Origin: Chitinophaga pinensis
GTDB lineage: Bacteria; Bacteroidota; Bacteroidia; Flavobacteriales_D; Crocinitomicaceae
Direction: 5' to 3'
Assembly (NCBI GenBank): GCA_945902745.1
Contig: CAMDNE010000002.1
Coordinates: 124,001-188,000, forward strand
Length of the DNA: 64,000 nt
Shown here: positions 3,618 through 33,166 of the stretch, in pieces
Layout: each line of letters opens with the position of its first letter
Numbering within the stretch: position 1 is the first letter of the stretch
Position numbers and translations under genes: made by a program
Notes under the pieces: generated by a model
Seen by the model: the letters and a program-made list of their open reading frames with translations, nothing else
What the model was told of the DNA's origin: nothing
Database searches by the model: none

Positions 3618-5996
3618 TTAAAATTGAATCTTGTAAACAAAATTGGGAAAGAACCCAATCTGATAAGCTGTATTAATTGTGTTTGTTAATGGATTATATC
3701 TTTCGGCGAAAACATTTTTATGGTTTGTAATATTTTGAATATCGAAATAGATTGATTGGGCAATTTTTCTTTTCTTGCTGTTCATTACAAAACCAATTTT
3801 AAAATCCATTCGAAAAAAGTCAGGATTTCTTTCTGAAAAAGCATAGTCATCTCCTTTTAAAACTTGTTGACCTAAAAGTTGTGAAGCAGCTAAGTCAACA
3901 GGTGTGAAATATCTCCCTCCGGCTTGAGTCATTTTGAAATCTAACGTAATTCTATTTCTTTTCTCTTTACCGATTTTAAATTCTTTTCCAACTAAAATAT
4001 TATATACATATTGTCCATTAAATGCAGTATTGTGTTGAATACCATCGCTTCCTTTAAATTTTGATTGGTAAATTGAACCTGTTGCTAATCCATAATACCC
4101 TTTGCTAAAAAATTTCTCAATCGTTAACTCAAGTCCATAATTGGTTCCCGTTCCTGTGTTTTCAAGATAAGAATTCTCATTTGGAAAAAAGCTTGCTCCT
4201 GCATTCAACATCGTGTAACTACTAGGCAACGCTGTAACAGGAACATTATACAATTGTTGAAAATAAACCTCAGTTTTTACTCTCCAGTCTTTTATCGGAA
4301 ATAAATCGTACCCTAAAACATAATGCATGCTTCTCGTGAAATCTAGATTTTTATTCGTTTCAACATAACTACCATCAGCTAATTGGGTTCTATAAAAATA
4401 AACATCTGTTGGTTGCATTTGACTGTGCATTCCATAACCTAAACTCAAAGCATTTTTTTCATTTATTTGAAATTTCAATCCAATTCTTGGTTCAATAGAA
4501 GCTGATTTATTTAGCACTAAATATTGTGAGTGTAAACCTGCATTTAGCGTCCATTTATTCGTAAAACTATATTTGACATGTCCATATGCTTGAAGCAAAG
4601 ACGTACTATTTTTGTAATCCCAAATTTGAATCCAGTCAGGAGTATATGTTCTATTTCTATAAAAAAGATTCAGATTGAGAATCTCATCGATTAATCCAAA
4701 TTTCAAAAACAATTTCGAATTAACCTTTACATTATAAGAGGTATTTAGTGAATACCTTAGTTGAGAGGTAGTATTTTCAATCACACGTGTAACTGACTGG
4801 TCTTGACTGTTTATTGTGTCTTCATCGTAATTAGAGGCTGAATATGTCGCTCCAATAACTGTTTTGAAATAGGATTTATCATTCACCCGAATAAAATGAC
4901 TCAAACCAACTAAACCTAAGCTACTCTGGAAATAACTATCTCTTGAAGGATTAGCAAATAAGTCCGCGCTATCTATTTTATCATGATCAAAGAAAATATG
5001 ACTTTTTCCTCCTAATCCAAACAACACAAACTTTCCAAACTTACTTGTTCCACTAGTGAATTTGAAAGATATATCTTGATAAAAAGGTGTTGCGGCAGTT
5101 CCAATTGGCAATCCAATTGCTTGTGCTACGCCTGTAAATGAATATCGGTAAGCCACTAAATAAGAGGAACCTTTTGTTTTATTAATTGGCCCTTCGGTCA
5201 TTCCTTCAATTCCCGTTAAAGCTCCAATTTGAAAAGTGTGTTCCCTTTTATCCGAATTACCTTTTCTAAAACCCAAATCAAAAACACCCGCATTTGCATT
5301 TCCGTATTCAGAAGGAAATGCTGATGTGAAAAAATCAGAATTCTTCAAAACGTTTGTGTTAATGCCACTTACAGGCCCTCCTGTTGTTCCAATTGTAGAA
5401 AAATGATTCGGATTTGGTATATTTAACCCTTCTATTCTCCACAAAACACCACTTGGTGAATTTCCTCTTATAACTAAATCATTTCTTGAATCATCTGGAG
5501 AACTAACCCCTGCAAAGTTTGCCGCCATTCTTGAAGGATCTGATCTGCCGCCAGCAAAACGATTTACTTCTTCTGTACTAAATGAACGAGCACTGACTGT
5601 CGCCATTTCGTTAATTGTCTCATTCTTTTTATATGCTTTAACTACAACTTCTTTGATATCTTGAATATTTTCTTCCAAGGCAACTTCTAAAGAAACTTCC
5701 TTTCCAGCTGTTACGACGACATTTGGAATCAGTACTGTTTTGTATCCACTAAAAGTAAATTGAATATCGTATCTTCCGGATTGAATCTCATTCAAATGGA
5801 AAATCCCATCAATATCTGTGATTGCTTTCTTGGTCGTGTCAACAGCATTCACAGAAACTAATACTCCTGGCAAAGTTTGTTGGGACTGCTTATCAACAAC
5901 AACTCCTTTAATTGTTTGACCTTTACTTTGTGCAAATGCATTTGTGGATAGTAATCCAAAAATAAATACGATTAAAATGCTTAATGTTCGTTTCAT
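3618..5996 (-). CDS. TonB-dependent outer membrane receptor with carboxypeptidase-regulatory domain
   Basis: A 792-residue outer membrane protein. A signal peptide (MKRTLSILIV to NAFAQ) is followed by a CarboxypepD_reg-like beta-sandwich (about 28-105), a plug domain (about 125-235, with NLVIRGNSPSGVLWRIEG) and a long beta-barrel ending in the terminal aromatic FVYKIQF. I use the ATG at 5996; twenty residues upstream contain no signal-peptide features and overlap the promoter. There is no SusD partner nearby, so it is a general TonB-dependent transporter rather than a SusC. The substrate cannot be read from the sequence. A LytS/LytTR two-component pair follows in the same operon. Confidence 0.88.
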   Translation of the reverse strand: MKRTLSILIVFIFGLLSTNAFAQSKGQTIKGVVVDKQSQQTLPGVLVSVNAVDTTKKAITDIDGIFHLNEIQSGRYDIQFTFSGYKTVLIPNVVVTAGKEVSLEVALEENIQDIKEVVVKAYKKNETINEMATVSARSFSTEEVNRFAGGRSDPSRMAANFAGVSSPDDSRNDLVIRGNSPSGVLWRIEGLNIPNPNHFSTIGTTGGPVSGINTNVLKNSDFFTSAFPSEYGNANAGVFDLGFRKGNSDKREHTFQIGALTGIEGMTEGPINKTKGSSYLVAYRYSFTGVAQAIGLPIGTAATPFYQDISFKFTSGTSKFGKFVLFGLGGKSHIFFDHDKIDSADLFANPSRDSYFQSSLGLVGLSHFIRVNDKSYFKTVIGATYSASNYDEDTINSQDQSVTRVIENTTSQLRYSLNTSYNVKVNSKLFLKFGLIDEILNLNLFYRNRTYTPDWIQIWDYKNSTSLLQAYGHVKYSFTNKWTLNAGLHSQYLVLNKSASIEPRIGLKFQINEKNALSLGYGMHSQMQPTDVYFYRTQLADGSYVETNKNLDFTRSMHYVLGYDLFPIKDWRVKTEVYFQQLYNVPVTALPSSYTMLNAGASFFPNENSYLENTGTGTNYGLELTIEKFFSKGYYGLATGSIYQSKFKGSDGIQHNTAFNGQYVYNILVGKEFKIGKEKRNRITLDFKMTQAGGRYFTPVDLAASQLLGQQVLKGDDYAFSERNPDFFRMDFKIGFVMNSKKRKIAQSIYFDIQNITNHKNVFAERYNPLTNTINTAYQIGFFPNFVYKIQF

Positions 5997-11067: not shown

Positions 11068-11110
11068 CACATATTTAGTAATTCAAAACCAACAAGATAC
11101 CTTCATAGAT

Positions 11111-13465
11111 ATGAGACCATTTTTAATACTCTTTTTTGCCTTATTGACATCTTTAAGCTCATTTTCTCAATTAACCGATAATCAAGTCAAAGAATTGATT
11201 CAAACTTCAACTGAAGATAAACTTTTGAGTGAAAACTCCCGAATGATGGTAGAAGGAAGTTTTTTTCATGCTGAGATGATTACTGACAAATTGTTGACTT
11301 TTCAACCAGAAAGTCCGAATTACAACTATCGAAAAGGATTTTTAGCATTAGAAATTAGAAAAGATTACAAAGCTGCAATTCCATTTTTAACTAAAGCAAT
11401 TACAAATACAAAACCTCATTATGATGCGTTCAACACCAAAGAACAAAGTGCGCCAGCTGATGCCTTTTATCATTTAGGGAATGCATATCAATTAAGTGGT
11501 GATTTAGAAAAGGCAACTGAGAATTATAAAGCATTTCTTACGAATTCAAACGGTAAATCAGAAACGATTACGCTTGCTAAACTGAAAATTACCCAATGTG
11601 AAAATGCACAGAAAGCAATTGCAGCGCCAGGTAATGTTGTGTTGAAAAATTTAGGCGTTTCCGTTAATACCATTTACCCAGATTATTCACCTGTTATTTC
11701 GTTGGATGGTTCAGCTTTGTATTTCACTTCAAGAAGACCTTGGGAAAACAACTCAACTGAGAATTTTCGCGATCCTGCAATTAATCAATATCCAGAAGAT
11801 GTTTATGTAAGTTATTTAGATTATGACTTGACTTGGACTGCAGCAATGAAATTGGATTTTTGTTTACCGAAAAGAAACGAAGCAACAATAGCGGTTAGTT
11901 CTGACGAAAGAAGAATTTACTTGTACGAAGATTCTACAGGCTCTGGTGATATTTATTACTCTGATTTCTACGCAGCTAAATTCAATGATATAAAAGCTTT
12001 AAATATTACTGGTTTAAATAGTGAGTTTTGGGAAACACATTGTATGATGAGTCATGATGGTTCACGCTTGTTTTTCTCTTCTGATCGTCCAGGTGGATTT
12101 GGAGGCAGAGATTTATACGTCATTAAAAAAACAGGCGATACTACTTGGTCTGCACCAATAAACCTAGGTGATAAAATCAATACTGCTTTCGACGAAGATG
12201 CGCCGTTTGTTTCTATTGACAATAAAATGCTTTATTTCTCATCAAACGGTGAGAAAAGTATTGGAGGATTTGATATCATGAATGCTGATTTGTTGGACAA
12301 TGGTACATGGTCAGAATCACGAAATTTAGGATTCCCTTTTAACTCAACAAATGACGACATTTATTATACTACTACAATTGATGGTTTAAGAGGTTACTTA
12401 ACTTCATTCAGAGGCGACGGTTATGGTGAAAAAGACATTTATGAAATCAACAATGATTATTTAGGTATTAAAAGCCTTGCTGTATTAAAAGGTTTAATTC
12501 GAAACTATGATAATTCACCTTTACCTGAAGATTTTCCAGTTGCAATGACATTGAAATGTAAAGATTGTGGGGATGAAGCTTCGTCAAGAACAATCTATCC
12601 ACGTTTGAAAGATGGTATTTTCATTACAAATTTACAAGCTTGTAAAACATACACACTTGCCTATGTAAATGCAAATGATAACGTCAACATGTATGAGGAA
12701 GATTTTAAAACAGAATGTACAGATCAATACCAAGAAATTAATAAGGAAGTAATTCTTAATGCTATAAAAGGAACAATTACACCTGTTAAAAACTATGTTA
12801 TTGAAGGTGTTGTTGCTGACAAAGGAACAAAAGCAATTCTTCCAAATTCTAAAGTTGAAGTCATTGATTTAAGAACGAACAAAGTTGTAGAAACTGTTTA
12901 CGCAGATGCGAATGGTAACTTTAAGTTGAAACCATTGCCAAATCGTTTCTTTGGTGAGCCTTTGGATGTTCAATTAAAAGTTTCCAAAGAAGATTACATT
13001 GCGCAAACATTGGATTTAACTCAAAAGCTTGGGACAGATGAGAAAATCAAAGTTACAATTGATTTGAATAAATCTGAAATTGGAACTGACCTCGCTAGTC
13101 TTTATGGAATCAAAAATATTTACTTTGATTTTGACAAATCAAACATTCGCAATGATGCTAAACGCGATTTAGACAAAATTGTTAAAGTTATGAATGATAA
13201 TCCTACAATGGAAATAGAACTTGGTTCCCATACAGATTGCAGAGGGTCAGCAATTTACAATGAGGATTTATCAAGTCGTCGTGCTAAGTCATCGGCAGAT
13301 TATATTAAATCACGTATCACTAATCCTTCTCGCATTTATGGAAAAGGATATGGAGAAAGTAAATTGATTAATAAATGTGAATGCGAGGGGATTACTGAAT
13401 CTACATGTTCTACTGAGGAACATCAGTTAAATCGAAGAACAGAATTTAGAATCGTTAAGAAATAA
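11111..13465 (+). CDS. OmpA-family protein with TPR, beta-propeller and CRD domains (PorE-like layout)
   Basis: A 784-residue envelope protein. Signal peptide (1-19), TPR helices (about 25-165), a PD40/WD40-like propeller (about 180-445, with repeats such as LYFTSRRP, LFFSSDRPGG and LYFSSNGE), a Cys-containing beta segment (about 455-555), a carboxypeptidase-regulatory domain (about 560-635) and an OmpA-C peptidoglycan-binding domain (about 660-784, with IYFDFDKSNI and LGSHTDCRG). This order is that of PorE, the T9SS component that ties the trans-envelope complex to peptidoglycan. Such proteins occur as several paralogues in Flavobacteriia, so it may be a relative rather than PorE itself. A strong terminator follows. 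Confidence 0.85.
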   Translation: MRPFLILFFALLTSLSSFSQLTDNQVKELIQTSTEDKLLSENSRMMVEGSFFHAEMITDKLLTFQPESPNYNYRKGFLALEIRKDYKAAIPFLTKAITNTKPHYDAFNTKEQSAPADAFYHLGNAYQLSGDLEKATENYKAFLTNSNGKSETITLAKLKITQCENAQKAIAAPGNVVLKNLGVSVNTIYPDYSPVISLDGSALYFTSRRPWENNSTENFRDPAINQYPEDVYVSYLDYDLTWTAAMKLDFCLPKRNEATIAVSSDERRIYLYEDSTGSGDIYYSDFYAAKFNDIKALNITGLNSEFWETHCMMSHDGSRLFFSSDRPGGFGGRDLYVIKKTGDTTWSAPINLGDKINTAFDEDAPFVSIDNKMLYFSSNGEKSIGGFDIMNADLLDNGTWSESRNLGFPFNSTNDDIYYTTTIDGLRGYLTSFRGDGYGEKDIYEINNDYLGIKSLAVLKGLIRNYDNSPLPEDFPVAMTLKCKDCGDEASSRTIYPRLKDGIFITNLQACKTYTLAYVNANDNVNMYEEDFKTECTDQYQEINKEVILNAIKGTITPVKNYVIEGVVADKGTKAILPNSKVEVIDLRTNKVVETVYADANGNFKLKPLPNRFFGEPLDVQLKVSKEDYIAQTLDLTQKLGTDEKIKVTIDLNKSEIGTDLASLYGIKNIYFDFDKSNIRNDAKRDLDKIVKVMNDNPTMEIELGSHTDCRGSAIYNEDLSSRRAKSSADYIKSRITNPSRIYGKGYGESKLINKCECEGITESTCSTEEHQLNRRTEFRIVKK

Positions 13466-27648: not shown

Positions 27649-27838
27649 TGCCTTTACTTTTAATTCGGGTATTATTTTAGTGGCTCTTTTTAATCCTTAA
27701 CGGCTTGCAAGCAGTCGATCGGCCCATTTTTCACAAGATCGTTTTTCCGAAGATAAAACTTAATCTTTAAAAACTTATCGTTTCTTCGAAGCAAGATTTA
27801 AGGGCTAGCGCTAAACCCGGATTATGAGCAACATTAAT

Positions 27839-28144
27839 TTACATTAAACTGAAAAGACTCCAAGCTAATATTAATGCATTAAATGTCAATAAAATAATGC
27901 TCAAAGTAGTGTAATTCTGTTTATTTATCAAATTTCCAGATAAGGCAATTGCGACTGCGTTTATTGATAATCTCAAATAGGTTGCTTCTCGTCCACTATT
28001 AATAAAATCAGGAAAAACGGTTAAATATTCTTTTATAATATTATCAAAACCTTCAATTTCAGTTGCGACTTTAATCCACCAATAAACATCACCAATTACA
28101 ATTAAGGTCAATATAATTATAATAATTAAAACTAAGGTTTTCAT
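27839..28144 (-). CDS. small membrane protein, cassette-like gene
   Basis: A 101-residue protein with an N-terminal membrane segment (about 3-22) and hydrophobic stretches near 60-75 and 80-100. I do not recognise a family. It is on the minus strand like every gene up to 30400, and it is preceded (in transcription direction) by an attC-like palindrome at 28181-28260. No clear attC-like site follows its stop, so it would be the last gene of the putative cassette array. Confidence 0.6.
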   Translation of the reverse strand: MKTLVLIIIIILTLIVIGDVYWWIKVATEIEGFDNIIKEYLTVFPDFINSGREATYLRLSINAVAIALSGNLINKQNYTTLSIILLTFNALILAWSLFSLM

Positions 28145-28180
28145 AGCACTTATATCAATTGGGAGGTTTCTGTGTATTGC

Positions 28181-28260
28181 TTTTAACGATTTAGCAGTAT
28201 GCGAAGTGACACTTTCTCTCGAATATGTACGTGCGCCATTTTGCTTACTGTGTGTTATGT
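28181..28260 (-). other. attC-like recombination site C (weakest of three)
   Basis: On the minus strand, six bases after the parE stop, the sequence reads CACATAACACAC, then an imperfect stem (AGCA-ATG-CG against CG-CAT-TGCT), then TCGTTAAAAGC. The AAC (28256-28254) and GTT (28187-28185) triplets stand 72 bases apart, as in the other two sites. Stem pairing is weaker, so this call leans on position and spacing. Confidence 0.4.
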
Positions 28261-28265
28261 GGGTT

Positions 28266-28589
28266 TCATTTTTTCACCTCCGAAGGAAGCAGTGAAACTA
28301 ATTTATTCTTCAAATCCATTCGTTCATGTAGGATTCTTGTAATTTCAATCGATTGATCTTCCAATACACGATAGAAAATTATATGCTTTGAGGTAAGTTT
28401 TCCCTTCAGATCTTGATGAATTTCCGGATATACTTTGCCAATTTGTGGTTTCTTAGCGATTGTTGAACAAGCACTAATTATTAGCTTATAATATTTGTCC
28501 GCCTGACTTTCAGACCACGCCTCAACAGTGTAATACCATATATCGGATAGATCCTTTACGGCATTGTTCGTTAACTTAAACTTTGCCAT
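28266..28589 (-). CDS. parE: ParE/RelE-superfamily toxin
   Basis: A 107-residue toxin. The fold pattern is clear: helical start AVKDLSDIWYYTVEAWSESQADKYY, the loop KKPQIGKVYPEI, and the strands KLTSKHIIFYRVLEDQSIEITRILHERMD. ParE toxins poison DNA gyrase; RelE relatives cut mRNA, and the target here is not proven. It starts directly at the stop of parD with no gap, the normal antitoxin-toxin order. It sits inside the putative cassette array and would stabilise it. Confidence 0.88.
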   Translation of the reverse strand: MAKFKLTNNAVKDLSDIWYYTVEAWSESQADKYYKLIISACSTIAKKPQIGKVYPEIHQDLKGKLTSKHIIFYRVLEDQSIEITRILHERMDLKNKLVSLLPSEVKK

Positions 28590-28832
28590 TTATTTCCTGC
28601 TTGCTTTCAACATTTTTAAATGCTCGTCAGGGTCGAAATCTTCGGCTAAACCACTATTAATACCTTCATCAACAGCATGACGCAAAGCAATAATTTTCTG
28701 TTCCTCTTCTTCAAGTAGTCTTAATCCAGCACGGATTGCCTCACTTGCATTTTTGTACCGTCCTTCTTTTAAAACACTTTGAATAAATTGATCAAAATAA
28801 CTACCCAAAGTAATTGATGTGTTTTTACTCAT
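28590..28832 (-). CDS. parD: ParD/CopG-type antitoxin
   Basis: An 80-residue protein starting MSKNTSITLGSYFDQF, with the ribbon-helix-helix part SITLGSYFDQFIQSVLKEGRYKNASEAIRAGLRLLEEEE typical of ParD; the C-terminal tail DPDEHLKML would bind the toxin. I use the ATG at 28832 and not one nine codons upstream, because the upstream codons lie on the likely operator. The gene abuts parE and should repress its own promoter through the palindrome just upstream. Confidence 0.88.
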   Translation of the reverse strand: MSKNTSITLGSYFDQFIQSVLKEGRYKNASEAIRAGLRLLEEEEQKIIALRHAVDEGINSGLAEDFDPDEHLKMLKASRK

Positions 28833-28842
28833 AACAACTAAT

Positions 28843-28868
28843 TTTGGTAAACATACCAAATATTGGTA
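28843..28868 (-). promoter_or_regulatory. candidate ParD operator
   Basis: A perfect inverted repeat TTTGGTA-AACA-TACCAAA (28843-28860) is followed by a third half-site TTGGTA (28863-28868). It begins 11 bases upstream of the parD ATG, where ribbon-helix-helix antitoxins usually bind for autorepression. Confidence 0.6.
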
Positions 28869-28913
28869 TTATTTCAAAATATATTTTGGGAATTTTTCGG
28901 GTATGGGCAATCC

Positions 28914-28990
28914 CACATAACGCTTTGCTTGTAGGCGATTTAGCCTGTGTTGCGCCTGCGGCAGGTTATATTGCTTACACACTGTTAGCG
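28914..28990 (-). other. attC-like recombination site A
   Basis: On the minus strand, ten bases after the stop of the 141-residue protein gene, CCGCTAACAGTG leads into a stem (TGTAAGCAATATAACCTG against CAGGCTAAATCGCCTACA) with a short loop, then GCGTTATGTGGG. Fourteen of 18 positions pair. Read on the plus strand, three of the four mismatches become G-T wobble pairs, so this strand, the bottom strand of the cassettes, folds best, as expected for attC. AAC and GTT are 68 bases apart. Confidence 0.55.
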
Positions 28991-29000
28991 GTATGTACTT

Positions 29001-29426
29001 TTAGTCATCTATTTTAAATTTCTCAATGTTCAATAAGAGGGTGTGGTCGCTATCCGGGTTTTCATAATCTTTTATTTCTAATTTCAGTATACTATAAAAC
29101 TTCAGATCAGGATTAATTCCTTTCGTAAATGTTTCGTTTTTTATTAACGTGTTCAATTGTAATATCGGTTGCACTTGGTATGGGTCAACCAGTAAATTTA
29201 TAGGGAACTGATTTTTTCTTTCATCAATGATGCGTCCTTGTTGGTCATCGAAAACAACATGTTTCAACTCAGCGGTTAGTTTAACCTTTGAAATGAAATT
29301 AGTCCATTCGTTTTCAAAATTCTTCTGGGATGTTACGAAAACACTATGAATTAATAAATAGCTGTCCTTAGAATTCAATTTGAATTCTATTTCAGGATTT
29401 TCTTTATTGAGTTTAATTTGTTCCAA
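29001..29426 (-). CDS. protein of unknown function, cassette-like gene
   Basis: A 141-residue soluble, beta-rich protein without signal peptide, membrane segment or Cys. I do not recognise a family; the middle part VVFDDQQGRIIDERKNQFPI is the most distinctive. It lies between attC-like sites B and A with under 30 bases on each side, the compact layout of a single-gene cassette. Confidence 0.65.
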   Translation of the reverse strand: MEQIKLNKENPEIEFKLNSKDSYLLIHSVFVTSQKNFENEWTNFISKVKLTAELKHVVFDDQQGRIIDERKNQFPINLLVDPYQVQPILQLNTLIKNETFTKGINPDLKFYSILKLEIKDYENPDSDHTLLLNIEKFKIDD

Positions 29427-29453
29427 TCTTATATCATGTTTTTATTGTATTAA

Positions 29454-29535
29454 CGCTAACGTTTTGCGCATAGGCGTCAGCGGGCAGTCTGGACCTAGTG
29501 CATTTCAGCCCGTTGTCGCTTATGCGCTGTTATAT
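29454..29535 (-). other. attC-like recombination site B (strongest)
   Basis: On the plus strand the arms 29466-29485 (GCGCATAGGCGTCAGCGGGC) and 29508-29527 (GCCCGTTGTCGCTTATGCGC) form a 20-position stem with 17 Watson-Crick pairs, two G-T wobbles and one T-T position, around a 22-base loop. On the minus strand the outer motifs are ATATAAC and GTTAGCG, with AAC and GTT 74 bases apart. It follows the methyltransferase stop by about 100 bases. The strand bias of the wobbles supports folding of the cassettes' bottom strand. Confidence 0.6.
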
Positions 29536-29632
29536 GCTGAAAAGTTTTGGGCATAACCTACCAAATTCGTTCTGGTGTATTCGTCTCTCGAGTTCAACCT
29601 TTTGTCCACTATGGTTTGTTAATTTTATATTT

Positions 29633-30400
29633 TTAATTGTTTTTTCGAAGATACTTTATCCAATTTCCAAATTTCAAAGTTCTTGTATTATTTGTCAAAT
29701 AAAATTGAATTAACTCTTTATTAAGCCATTCTTCAACTTCGTTATAGGATGTTTGTCCACATTCAATTGCAGCAGTTATATTACTTTGTGTTGTGAAATA
29801 TAAAATAAGTTCATCCTTTGTAAAGATTATTGGATTTTTAAATTCTTCTTCATTTTCTAATATCAAATTTTTAGAACTTAAATTATCTTCAGACCAACTA
29901 TAACTATTGTTCCTCATAGGTGCTGGGAATTTTTTCAAGTAAACTTCAGGATACCAATTACTAAAACTTTCAACATCTTCCATCTCCGAAATGAAAAAAT
30001 TATCATATAGTATTAACCAACCTTTTGAAGATAAAAGTCTATTCGCTTCTACAAGAAATTTATCTATATCAAACCAATGAACTCCAGAACATACTGTTAT
30101 TAGGTTAAATTCATTACTTGAAAAAGGTTGATTTTCAGCATTTGCAAGTGAGTACTTAATTTCATCTTGATTTAACGCCAATTTTAACATTTCTTCCGAT
30201 GTGTCAGTGCCGAAGACATTATTCGATATTTCAAGTAATGCACTGGTCGACAAACCTGTACCGCAAGCTATATCCAATGAGTTGTTTAGCTTATTAATAA
30301 TATTCAAATGTTTTTTAATATGAGAAATTGTAGTATTATGGAAATTAGGTCTGCCTTTTGAATATCTTTCAGCTGCATTTATAGGGGTGAAATAATTCAT
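29633..30400 (-). CDS. class I SAM-dependent methyltransferase (Methyltransf_11 type), cassette-like gene
   Basis: A 255-residue soluble enzyme with motif I SLDIACGTGLSTSALLEI, an acidic residue in FGTDTSEEML and the motif FNLITVCSGVHWFDID. This group resembles the yeast Crg1/trans-aconitate methyltransferase-like proteins, but the substrate is unknown. It is the first gene of the minus-strand accessory block; an attC-like palindrome follows it. Confidence 0.82.
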   Translation of the reverse strand: MNYFTPINAAERYSKGRPNFHNTTISHIKKHLNIINKLNNSLDIACGTGLSTSALLEISNNVFGTDTSEEMLKLALNQDEIKYSLANAENQPFSSNEFNLITVCSGVHWFDIDKFLVEANRLLSSKGWLILYDNFFISEMEDVESFSNWYPEVYLKKFPAPMRNNSYSWSEDNLSSKNLILENEEEFKNPIIFTKDELILYFTTQSNITAAIECGQTSYNEVEEWLNKELIQFYLTNNTRTLKFGNWIKYLRKNN

Positions 30401-30555
30401 AATTGTTTTTTTTTTAGTTGTTTTATGTCTTAAAGCCAGATTGTTTTTTTATCTGTAAAATTGTTCAAAGTCAGTCAGCTGTGATTTAAATCGAAGTTAA
30501 AATTTCAAGTCTTATCGATGTCCCCCAGACCCGAAGCGAGATTTCACTTTTTTGC

Positions 30556-30596
30556 ACCTAACGAGTGGCTACCCCTCATTTTATGAGGCTAAGCCA
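30556..30596 (-). other. hairpin with GTTAGGT core at the edge of the accessory block
   Basis: The plus strand arms TGGCT-CCTCAT and ATGAGG-AGCCA form an 11-pair stem with a three-base internal mismatch and a TTT loop. On the minus strand it is followed by CTC and then GTTAGGT, a perfect GTTRRRY core. The matching RYYYAAC arm is not in the right place, so it is not a standard attC. There is no T-run, so it is not a usual terminator. Confidence 0.4.
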
Positions 30597-30613
30597 ATTC
30601 CTCAACAAGATAG

Positions 30614-31612
30614 TTATTTTCCTTCATCAAGAAACCCTTCCTTCCGTTTCTTCAAAAAGACTTCCGTTCGTAAAACAGAATTCAGCCGGATATCTTCCCA
30701 AAAAAGATTGACATCACCAATGTGATAATGATTCATCGTAAACGACATGTATCGGTAAGGAAAATGGGGGGCTGTAATCCAGATTACTCCATTCCCGCGA
30801 TTGGTGGTAAAACTTTGCTCATACATTTTACCATTTGAGAATAAAAATCCTTTGTGCAATTCTCGTGGAGCAACCATTGTAGTATCCCACGTAACCGGGT
30901 TGATGGCCACTTTCCCTTTACACCAAGCATAGTTCGTAGGATCCAATTTCTTTTTAAAAGTATTCCAGCTGACAAAACCTCCAATATCATCCGGGTGAAC
31001 CATCAATGGAATGGTTTTGTACAAATTAGGCTCGAAACCATTGCCTGGCAAATAAGCCGACACCAACTGATTCTGCAAAGGTTTGCCGTCGAAAAAGTCT
31101 CTTAAAATAAAGGATAAATGCGTACTTCCCTGACTGTGACCAGCTAAAATGATTCCTCGACCGTTGTTAAAATGCTCCAAATAATATTCGAACGCCGCTT
31201 TCACATCTGAATACGCAAAAAGTAACGCTTCCCTCCCACCAGAATCAAGGTTGTAATATGCGCGTAAATGTGCTTGGCGGTAATATGGCACATATAAACT
31301 TCCAGAACTTGCCCAAGCAGATGCTTGAAAAGGAACTACAGAATTTAAGATTTTTCCTTGCTGCTCTTTGTCTTCGATTGGAACATTCCATCGGGTATCT
31401 TTTTCGGAAACAATTAGGGTTGGATAGACATAAAAAACATCAATCGAATCAAACGGATCTCGAACGAAGAACTCTTTCATTTTTTCAGGGTAATTCCCCG
31501 GAACAACTGCCCAATTAGAAGGATTTGAATAATCAACTGCTTCTTTTTGCGAAAGAACTGAAAAGGTGACTTGTAAAAGTGTAATAAGTAGTAAGGTGAT
31601 TCTGAAAAACAT
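30614..31612 (-). CDS. DUF3089-family secreted alpha/beta hydrolase
   Basis: A 332-residue protein with a signal peptide (1-21) and the features of DUF3089: DVFYVYPTL early, the aromatic segment YVPYYRQAHL, and the nucleophile elbow GHSQGS, with a late His in MNHYHIGDVN or nearby. It should be a periplasmic or surface lipase/esterase of unknown substrate. Its start abuts the stop of the FAD oxidoreductase gene (31613), so the two form an operon in that order. Confidence 0.83.
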   Translation of the reverse strand: MFFRITLLLITLLQVTFSVLSQKEAVDYSNPSNWAVVPGNYPEKMKEFFVRDPFDSIDVFYVYPTLIVSEKDTRWNVPIEDKEQQGKILNSVVPFQASAWASSGSLYVPYYRQAHLRAYYNLDSGGREALLFAYSDVKAAFEYYLEHFNNGRGIILAGHSQGSTHLSFILRDFFDGKPLQNQLVSAYLPGNGFEPNLYKTIPLMVHPDDIGGFVSWNTFKKKLDPTNYAWCKGKVAINPVTWDTTMVAPRELHKGFLFSNGKMYEQSFTTNRGNGVIWITAPHFPYRYMSFTMNHYHIGDVNLFWEDIRLNSVLRTEVFLKKRKEGFLDEGK

Positions 31613-33166
31613 TTATTCTTTATTTATTTTATTGAAAATCGCATCAACGCATTTCATCCCATCAATTGCTGCGGAAATTATTCCACCAGCATAGCCCGCT
31701 CCTTCAGCGCACGGAAATAATCCTTGAATTTCAACGTGCTCCATTGTTTCTGGATTCCGAGGAATAGAAATCGGTGAAGATGTTCTGGATTCAGGCGCGT
31801 GTAAAACAGCATCATTTGTCAAGTAACCATTCATCTTTTGACCAAAATCAATAAAGGCTTTTCTTAATCGGTTGACAACAAACGGTGGGAAAATAGTATC
31901 CATTTCCACACTTGTTAACCCTGGAATATAAGAGGATCGTGGGAAATCAGTTGATTTTTTCTTTTGTACAAAATCCAATAAGCGCTGTGCAGGAACATTT
32001 TGTGTTCCACCAGCTACTTCCCAACATGTTCGTTCAATCATTTTTTGAAAGTCTAAACAAACAAAGGGATCATGTTCTTTTCCAGGAAAATCTTCTGGAG
32101 AAATTCCTACTACAACACCTGAATTTGAATACGGATTGTTGCGTTTCGATGGTGACCAACCATTTGTAACTACTTCCTCTTGAGCTGTAGCACATGGAGC
32201 AATAATCCCACCCGGACACATGCAAAATGAATAAACTCCCCTTCCATCAACTTGTGTTACCAACGAATACGAAGCTGGCGAAATAAAATCATCGTTCAAC
32301 CTTCCGTGGTATTGAATCGTATCAATTAAATCTTGTGTATGTTCAACTCGCACGCCTAAAGCGAACGGTTTTGCCTCAATCTTTATTCCTCGTTGATGCA
32401 ACAAGTGAAAAATATCTCTTGCTGAATGTCCTGTAGCTAAAATGACATTATCGAAATTCAACCATTCTTTACTATTGATTTCAATGCGTTTGATGGAATG
32501 ATTCTCAACTTGAACATCTGTTAATTTCGATTCAAAATGCACTTCTCCACCGTATTTCAAAATCGTTTCACGCATTTCAACAATAATCTGCGGTAATTTA
32601 TTCGTCCCAATATGCGGATGTGCATCAACCAGAATATCGTCATCTGCACCGAAATGCACAAACCACTTCAACGCTTTTTCAACGTCTCCCCGCTTTTTAG
32701 ATCGTGTATATAATTTCCCGTCAGAATAAGTTCCTGCTCCACCTTCACCAAAACAGTAATTGGATTCTGGATTTACGATGGAATCTTTGTTCAATTTCGC
32801 TAAATCACGTCTGCGTGAACGAACATCTTTTCCGCGTTCAAATACAATTGGTTTTAATCCAACTTCCAAACAATGTAATGCCGCAAACAAACCTGCTGGA
32901 CCTGCACCAATTATGGCAACTGATTGCTCGTTAGAAACATCTTTAGGATTAAATGATGCTATTTTTTCAATAGATTCATCCTTCAAATAAACTTCAAATG
33001 AACAATTGATTTTTATAATTCTTTTTCGCGCATCAATACTGCGTTTTTTCCAAACGAATTGAAAATCATCGGAATTAAGTCCTAATTCTTCTTTTATTTT
33101 GTGTTTGAGAAATACTAAATCCTGTACTTGTTCGGGTAGGATTTGAAATTGAACTGTTTGACTCAT
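31613..33166 (-). CDS. NAD(P)/FAD-dependent dehydrogenase (COG2509 type)
   Basis: A 517-residue soluble flavoprotein. A small N-terminal domain (1-90; FQFVWKKRSIDARKRIIKI) precedes the FAD-binding Rossmann motif GAGPAGLFAALHCLE. Later come YTRSKKRGDVEKALKWFVHFGA, CPGGIIAPCAT and the C-terminal FAD-contact motif AEGAGYAGGIISAAIDG. The family is widespread but its reaction is not established. The ATG at 33166 (MSQTVQF) is chosen because the upstream codons run into porT. It lies four bases after the porT stop. Confidence 0.85.
   Translation of the reverse strand: MSQTVQFQILPEQVQDLVFLKHKIKEELGLNSDDFQFVWKKRSIDARKRIIKINCSFEVYLKDESIEKIASFNPKDVSNEQSVAIIGAGPAGLFAALHCLEVGLKPIVFERGKDVRSRRRDLAKLNKDSIVNPESNYCFGEGGAGTYSDGKLYTRSKKRGDVEKALKWFVHFGADDDILVDAHPHIGTNKLPQIIVEMRETILKYGGEVHFESKLTDVQVENHSIKRIEINSKEWLNFDNVILATGHSARDIFHLLHQRGIKIEAKPFALGVRVEHTQDLIDTIQYHGRLNDDFISPASYSLVTQVDGRGVYSFCMCPGGIIAPCATAQEEVVTNGWSPSKRNNPYSNSGVVVGISPEDFPGKEHDPFVCLDFQKMIERTCWEVAGGTQNVPAQRLLDFVQKKKSTDFPRSSYIPGLTSVEMDTIFPPFVVNRLRKAFIDFGQKMNGYLTNDAVLHAPESRTSSPISIPRNPETMEHVEIQGLFPCAEGAGYAGGIISAAIDGMKCVDAIFNKINKE

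Follow-up and report, generated by a model that had tools for sequence, protein, structure and literature searches.

The closest described counterparts of the locus reported here are the attC sites of integrons, which are described as consisting of R and L boxes, an unpaired central spacer, a terminal structure that varies and, on one arm, two or three extrahelical bases, the choice of strand being attributed mainly to the first extrahelical base (PMC2727003). An insert specific to the integron integrase IntI, I2, docks the extrahelical bases and impedes the second strand exchange; according to the account in PMC7790495 it is needed for cassette capture and has been reported in no other protein. 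Earlier surveys are described as having selected integrases via the IntI domain (PMC9668308, PMC2426708), and the site models detailed in PMC8352920 were built for 11 taxa, none of them Bacteroidota. For Bacteroidetes proper, the IntegronFinder 2.0 account gives one complete integron, in Salinibacter (PMC9024848). Bacteroidota are also named among the integron-bearing phyla (PMC8618304, PMC9668308), so canonical integrons exist in the phylum. No description of arrays of the kind reported below was found in the open-access papers searched.

The window, that is the whole stretch of 64,000 nucleotides that was analysed, contains a palindrome at 29457-29532 that is likely an attC-like cassette site in an integron-like array, served by a XerA/IntI-like recombinase without I2 and probably acting as a folded bottom strand. 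Judged by its surroundings, the palindrome is a recombination site within a cassette array, which goes beyond what a sequence-only reading of the same DNA had proposed. The architecture can be read from the sequences compared here, by several mutually independent lines: sites with covariation and strand bias, cassettes, a junction at GTTA, a recombinase neighbouring such sites, an attI-like junction, and the lack of the IntI insert. We further infer a folded single-strand reaction, this recombinase as its catalyst, and wobble pairs that set the choice of strand.

The palindrome (site 2) has the frame TAAC + GTTTT + 20-position stem + T + GTTA, which the sequence-only reading had not described, with the stem nested inside and its left and right arms at 29466-29485 and 29508-29527. 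The TAACG strand is the plus strand of the window and corresponds to the bottom strand. On it the stem has 17 Watson-Crick pairs, two G.T pairs and one T.T, while the minus strand has A.C at both wobble places; the sequence-only reading had described the stem in just these terms, with two A-C mismatches on the minus strand, and they can be read directly from the sequence. Folded as single-stranded DNA, the check which that reading had suggested for both strands, the plus strand reaches -20.0 kcal/mol (z -4.45; none of 200 shuffles was as stable) and the minus strand -17.6 kcal/mol (z -3.13; one shuffle of 200 was as stable). The stem is not followed by a T-run; the sequence-only reading had likewise noted this lack and held that the palindrome is not a transcription terminator.

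Three complete attC-like sites and one decayed site lie in the window, all separating short minus-strand genes, and form an array with the following features:

30614-31612, minus strand: chromosomal flank gene (DUF3089; Pfam 1.4e-50)
30563-30600, minus strand: decayed attI-like sequence, an inverted repeat around CCTCATAAAATGAGG (30574-30588), adjoining the first cassette
29460-30562, minus strand: cassette A, a methyltransferase ORF (29633-30400; Pfam PF08241, 1.6e-17) with site 2
29457-29532, plus strand: attC-like site 2, the palindrome under study (site model R1, 58 bits, E 1e-11; in the R1 training set)
28921-29460, minus strand: cassette B, a 141-aa ORF (29001-29426; no Pfam or NCBIfam match) with site 1
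28918-28987, plus strand: attC-like site 1 (R1 44.4 bits; in the training set)
28187-28921, minus strand: cassette C, a ParD antitoxin (28590-28859) and a ParE toxin (28266-28589) with site 0 (Pfam PF03693, 9.3e-27, and PF05016, 6e-17)
28184-28257, plus strand: attC-like site 0 (R1 50.5 bits; in the training set)
27831-28187, minus strand: probable cassette D, a 101-aa ORF (27839-28144; no Pfam or NCBIfam match), ending at the decayed site
27698-27831, plus strand: decayed attC-like site at the array end, its GTTA end lost (R1 partial match at 27716-27810, 23.8 bits, E 0.0021; not in the training set)

The complete frames at 29457-29532, 28918-28987 and 28184-28257 share one orientation. A 20-base pattern for the left part, drawn from site 2 and site 1 themselves, has four matches where 0.20 would be expected, matching site 2 and 28918-28937 without mismatch and two places more weakly. 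The far boundary of the decayed site was set by eye; its part at 27698-27812 shares 86% identity with an intact site in L146, a genome of another species of the genus. At the opposite edge, homology of the chromosomal flank with two related species ends at or near the edge of the array, with 30567-31700 being 92% identical to L149 and 30584-31700 86% identical to L176. At the same chromosomal place L149 has an intact attI-like sequence and, after it, another cassette, the version in the window being decayed; none was seen at the corresponding place in L176. No recombinase lies beside the array in the window.

The start and the end of a cassette tend to be complementary. In cassette C, 28254-28266 (GTTATGTGGG...) mirrors 28909-28921 (...CCCACATAAC), for a score of six leading bases, and in cassette B the start GTTAGCG and the end CGCTAAC share three leading bases past GTTA. 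Compared by eye, the flanks of cassette A match in 8 of 12 bases, and those of cassette D show no match. Across 44 pairs of neighbouring sites, taken from an orientation-neutral scan, a mean of 3.95 leading bases agree, against 0.93 (sd 0.18) when partners are shuffled and a maximum of 1.61 in 2000 shuffles; within-site and wrong-direction controls gave 1.18 and 0.98. Of 43 cassettes that contain an ORF of 50 aa or longer, 42 have their longest ORF opposite the TAACG strand, which therefore corresponds to what is called the bottom strand in attC sites.

The ParDE cassette is common to three genomes, the copies being as follows:

window 28187-28921: cassette C
L146:2074-2960: copy in another species of the genus, 93.5% identical over 629 bases
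L064:12523-13031: copy in a metagenome-assembled genome, 96.3% identical over 403 bases, up to the contig end

Strong identity begins at CGTTAT in all three, and BLAST extends the homology 7 to 16 bases into the part that is common to all sites. The sites upstream of the cassette are three different ones, with differing arm sequences and two lengths (70 and 126 nt). To within the few bases common to all sites, the homology thus starts at GTTA, and this point appears as a natural junction. At the other end, the stretch shared with L146 does not reach the site but ends within parE. The occurrence of one cassette behind differing sites in three genomes can be read as a natural record of cassette transfer. 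This junction at the end of a site, together with the pairing of cassette ends with cassette starts, also speaks against a transcription terminator, a REP-like repeat, an IS200/IS605 end or a structured RNA. Any of these would suit a stable hairpin in an intergenic position, but the stem has no T-run and an Rfam scan of the window gave no match at gathering score, and we give the whole group next to no credence. A further cassette, with a 410-aa protein, is 97% identical between two genomes of the genus (L145:1333-2874 and L176:2792-4334).

An alignment (A1) of 29 sites, 10 from this genome and 19 from relatives, was assembled out of 31 candidates, leaving out two of the weakest (L049:13203-13289 and L054:7039-7123). 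Standard pairs fill 91.8% of its 662 cells, against 64.9% in shuffles, and both sides have changed in 18 of 23 pairs. Since the A1 sites were chosen partly by pairing, a second scan scored G.T and A.C alike and fixed orientation by the 5/1 spacer frame only, covering 884,500 bases with some contigs included twice. It found 91 distinct sites, against two in a reversed-sequence control. An earlier structure filter, which forced pairing next to TAACG, had missed most sites owing to the 5/1 loop and was replaced.

On the TAACG strand, G.T outnumbers A.C by 206 to 53 in the 91 distinct sites (82 sites with more G.T, 2 with fewer, 7 ties) and by 64 to 15 in 30 representatives with arms less than 80% identical (25 sites against 1, with 4 ties). 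The G.T pairs cluster at stem positions 8, 11 and 14, whereas the direction is reversed at position 5, with C.A on the TAACG strand in 40 of the 91 sites. With positions 5, 8, 11 and 14 set aside, the excess is 20 to 4 in the representatives and 56 to 12 in all sites. By DNA folding the TAACG strand is the more stable in 74 of the 91 sites (less stable in 13) and in 22 of the 30 representatives (less stable in 5); with the arms only, it is the more stable in 28 representatives and the less stable in 2. The sequence-only reading had ascribed the asymmetry of the palindrome to selection for folding of one strand, and had proposed looking at homologous sites for covariation and for G-T pairs kept on the same strand. 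Both are seen, and with the stability of the G.T strand in the representatives they support the view that selection favours a strand-asymmetric fold in site 2.

The most conserved stem base is the right T at position 14 (27 of 30 representatives), followed by the left G at position 11 (25 of 30). Each occurs with more than one partner, so reading by a protein is a live alternative to pure folding; the recombinase could read T14 and G11, instead of or besides any tuning of the fold. The 5/1 spacer likewise distinguishes the strands.

The site family has no conserved extrahelical bases. Bulges were fitted in 142 sites (the best 150 of 198 hits gave 144 distinct sites, 142 with usable ends), of which 92 fit best without a bulge, 34 with one in the left arm and 16 with one in the right arm (R''-L''), at scattered places; a few of the bulge calls are rows out of frame. 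Eight of the 16 right-arm bulges fall at position 7. A single unpaired G at right-arm position 7 is seen in the sites starting at L193:4498, L149:5738, L153:1645, L052:15647, L162:288 and L147:879. Lying on the arm that carries the extrahelical bases in canonical sites, these are possible intermediates between the two designs.

The genome encodes a candidate recombinase on another contig:

C7:58335-59456: tyrosine recombinase, 374 aa

Its only NCBIfam match above the cut-off is NF040815 (224 bits against a cut-off of 220), a XerA-type model titled site-specific tyrosine recombinase/integron integrase. Against the integron model TIGR02249 it scores 190 bits where the cut-off is 265, in two stretches (7-178 and 238-315), and the skipped profile positions, 179-237, are the place of the IntI-specific insert. 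Correspondingly, residues 181-239 of IntI 2a3v (59 residues) face 17 positions of the recombinase family profile. TIGR02249 matched all seven family members scanned in two stretches, at 190-208 bits; a control IntI (a partial protein from L073) gave 383 bits in one stretch. NF040815 is above its cut-off in four of the seven, and the XerC and XerD models are below theirs in all seven. Going by these profile comparisons, the family lacks I2. The residues R232, K257, H321, R324, H347 and Y356, which we take to be the catalytic residues of the active site, do not vary across an alignment of 19 recombinases. The L047 protein, 97% identical to the C7 recombinase, was modelled with AlphaFold (mean pLDDT 83.5, pTM 0.50), and the model aligns with archaeal Xer 4a8e at Z 22.8 (rmsd 8.8, 254 aligned) and with IntI 2a3v at Z 18.3 (rmsd 9.3, 253 aligned), in a VIA-align comparison that spans residues 96-359.

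The recombinase is by these measures, NF040815 score and Z values alike, nearer to XerA and Xer than to IntI, as would be expected if a XerA-like recombinase acted on duplex DNA, as in Xer/dif-like cassettes. The palindrome would then represent two inverted half-sites and the G/A asymmetry a binding motif, with which the conservation of T14 and G11 in the face of more than one partner also agrees. Three observations make this unlikely in our view. The arms vary yet stay paired over about 20 positions, a pairing that duplex recognition does not need; the G.T excess persists outside the conserved positions (20 to 4, as above); and the same cassette is preceded by different sites.

A canonical IntI with I2, encoded elsewhere in the cell and acting on the sites in trans, would account for the frame, the cassette signature and the orientation, which are as in attC sites, and canonical integrons have been reported in Bacteroidota (PMC8618304, PMC9668308). 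Against it, TIGR02249 was above its cut-off in none of 60 genomes, searched at E <= 1e-60 in a way that gene fragments could escape, while a positive-control genome (G060) gave 391 bits; we dropped this explanation on that result. The lack of conserved extrahelical bases, with 92 of 142 sites best without a bulge, weighs on the same side, and we consider a canonical IntI in trans very improbable. Recombination of a folded bottom strand by the recombinase without I2 is the reading followed below.

The 60 genomes are the source genome and 59 others drawn from its genus, family and order, many of the 60 being fragmented drafts. R1 sites occur in 44 of them and a recombinase of the family (E <= 1e-60) in 31. 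At this preset threshold recombinase and sites are not associated (sites in 25 of 31 genomes against 19 of 29, p 0.25); at E <= 1e-90, a threshold chosen afterwards, they are (21 of 21 against 23 of 39, p 0.0004). Sites are thus present in 23 of the 39 genomes without a close recombinase (E > 1e-90). Most site-bearing contigs of the source genome, that of the window included, have no family recombinase at E <= 1e-60.

R1 matched a site at 15 of 29 recombinase loci examined, which are mostly from Flavobacteriales or other Bacteroidota, and at 13 of the 15 the sites lie downstream of the recombinase on the opposite strand. L068 and L069 have a site in the other orientation, and L062 additionally shows a weak match that mirrors one of its own sites. 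The remaining 14 loci gave no R1 hit; seven of these have less than 1.6 kb after the gene, and some have several kb downstream. A free hairpin scan of ten loci gave hits near the control level, the better candidates in L055 and L068 being matched by R1 as well; candidates in L065 and L175 were left out of the counts.

Eighteen loci combine a recombinase with a site (L049 and L051 having been dropped as duplicates of L137 and L136), and the junction chosen at each was the GTTA that matched the cassette end over the greatest length. In 11 of them, 93-102 nt separate the last recombinase codon from the start of the first cassette; in three the distance is 938-941 nt, and in four the start is elsewhere or was not found. 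Many of these attI-like junctions are preceded by something like GGTTATANNTAA, read by eye. With up to one mismatch, the 15-mer CCTCATAAAATGAGG occurs at three places in the genome (a control pattern had one match): the attI of C7, a second intact attI-like junction on C12 and the start of the array in the window. That this inverted repeat is a common terminator was considered and is argued against by there being only three such places in the genome, with array starts adjoining. In L035, a locus of the source genome on C7, a gene with a BRO-N domain (L035:9486-10313; G000:C7) lies between the recombinase and attI and fills the 938-941-nt interval; L136 and L137 have a spacing like it. The second intact junction (L037:3700-3890; G000:C12) is on a contig with two sites. 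That contig carries no recombinase of the family at E <= 1e-60, and about 82 kb away there is a tyrosine recombinase that is more distantly related.

In integrons the integrase is usually divergent from the cassettes, whereas the recombinase here is mostly co-oriented with them and lacks the IntI-specific insert. The sites differ from attC in their 5/1-nt central spacer, in having no conserved extrahelical bases and in a strand asymmetry that resides in G.T wobbles. The likeness to integrons extends to tandem one-way cassettes, palindromic sites with AAC/GTT ends, as in the R''/R' boxes of attC, the complementarity of cassette start and end, and an attI-like junction that mostly keeps a fixed distance from a tyrosine recombinase gene; chromosomal integrons and attC arrays without an adjacent integrase offer a like comparison. 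A Xer/dif site is a short duplex of about 28 bp with two recombinase half-sites, unlike the sites of this family, which are 70-149 nt long with stems of about 20 positions. While the recombinase scores best against the XerA model NF040815 and archaeal Xer 4a8e, some 100 extra N-terminal residues, long hairpin sites, an attI-like platform and cassette arrays set the system apart from Xer. As in integrons, cassette genes lie opposite the folding strand, site lengths compare with 57-142 nt given for attC, and the single-strand fold is kept more than the sequence, here by covariation and for attC by definition (PMC2727003). The system thus appears, from its sequence features, to work like an integron. 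We leave it outside the integrons proper, since I2 and conserved extrahelical bases, both of them defining features, were looked for and are missing.

In the mechanism that we propose, the C7-encoded recombinase, which has an attI of its own, would act in trans on the sites of the window. The TAACG strand, which is non-coding for the cassette genes, would form a long hairpin in which the paired arms stand in for a core site in duplex form. The conserved G.T pairs, A.C on the other strand, would bias folding, recognition or both, and thereby lead to entry of the cassette in one direction. The cut would lie at the G^TTA/TAA^C end. Cassettes would be released or taken up in circular form, at attI or some other site.

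I2 is missing together with precisely those extrahelical bases that it would dock, and arrays, attI-like junctions and a natural junction are present nonetheless. Two questions thereby become testable: single-strand recombination without I2, and strand choice without extrahelical bases. A wider reading, attractive to us though we stop short of calling it probable, is that of a widespread Bacteroidota class of integron that carries out single-strand recombination without I2 or extrahelical bases and chooses its strand via G.T wobbles, being either an independent invention or a relic from before I2. If so, a reservoir of gene capture in Bacteroidota may escape searches that require the IntI domain.

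Three similar hairpins of 158-159 nt were seen at L175:3569-3727, 4490-4648 and 11108-11265 (G029:C1), downstream of a more distant relative of the recombinase, in a free scan whose control gave four hits. They have AAC/GTT ends and other spacers, and are possibly a sister family of sites missed by R1.
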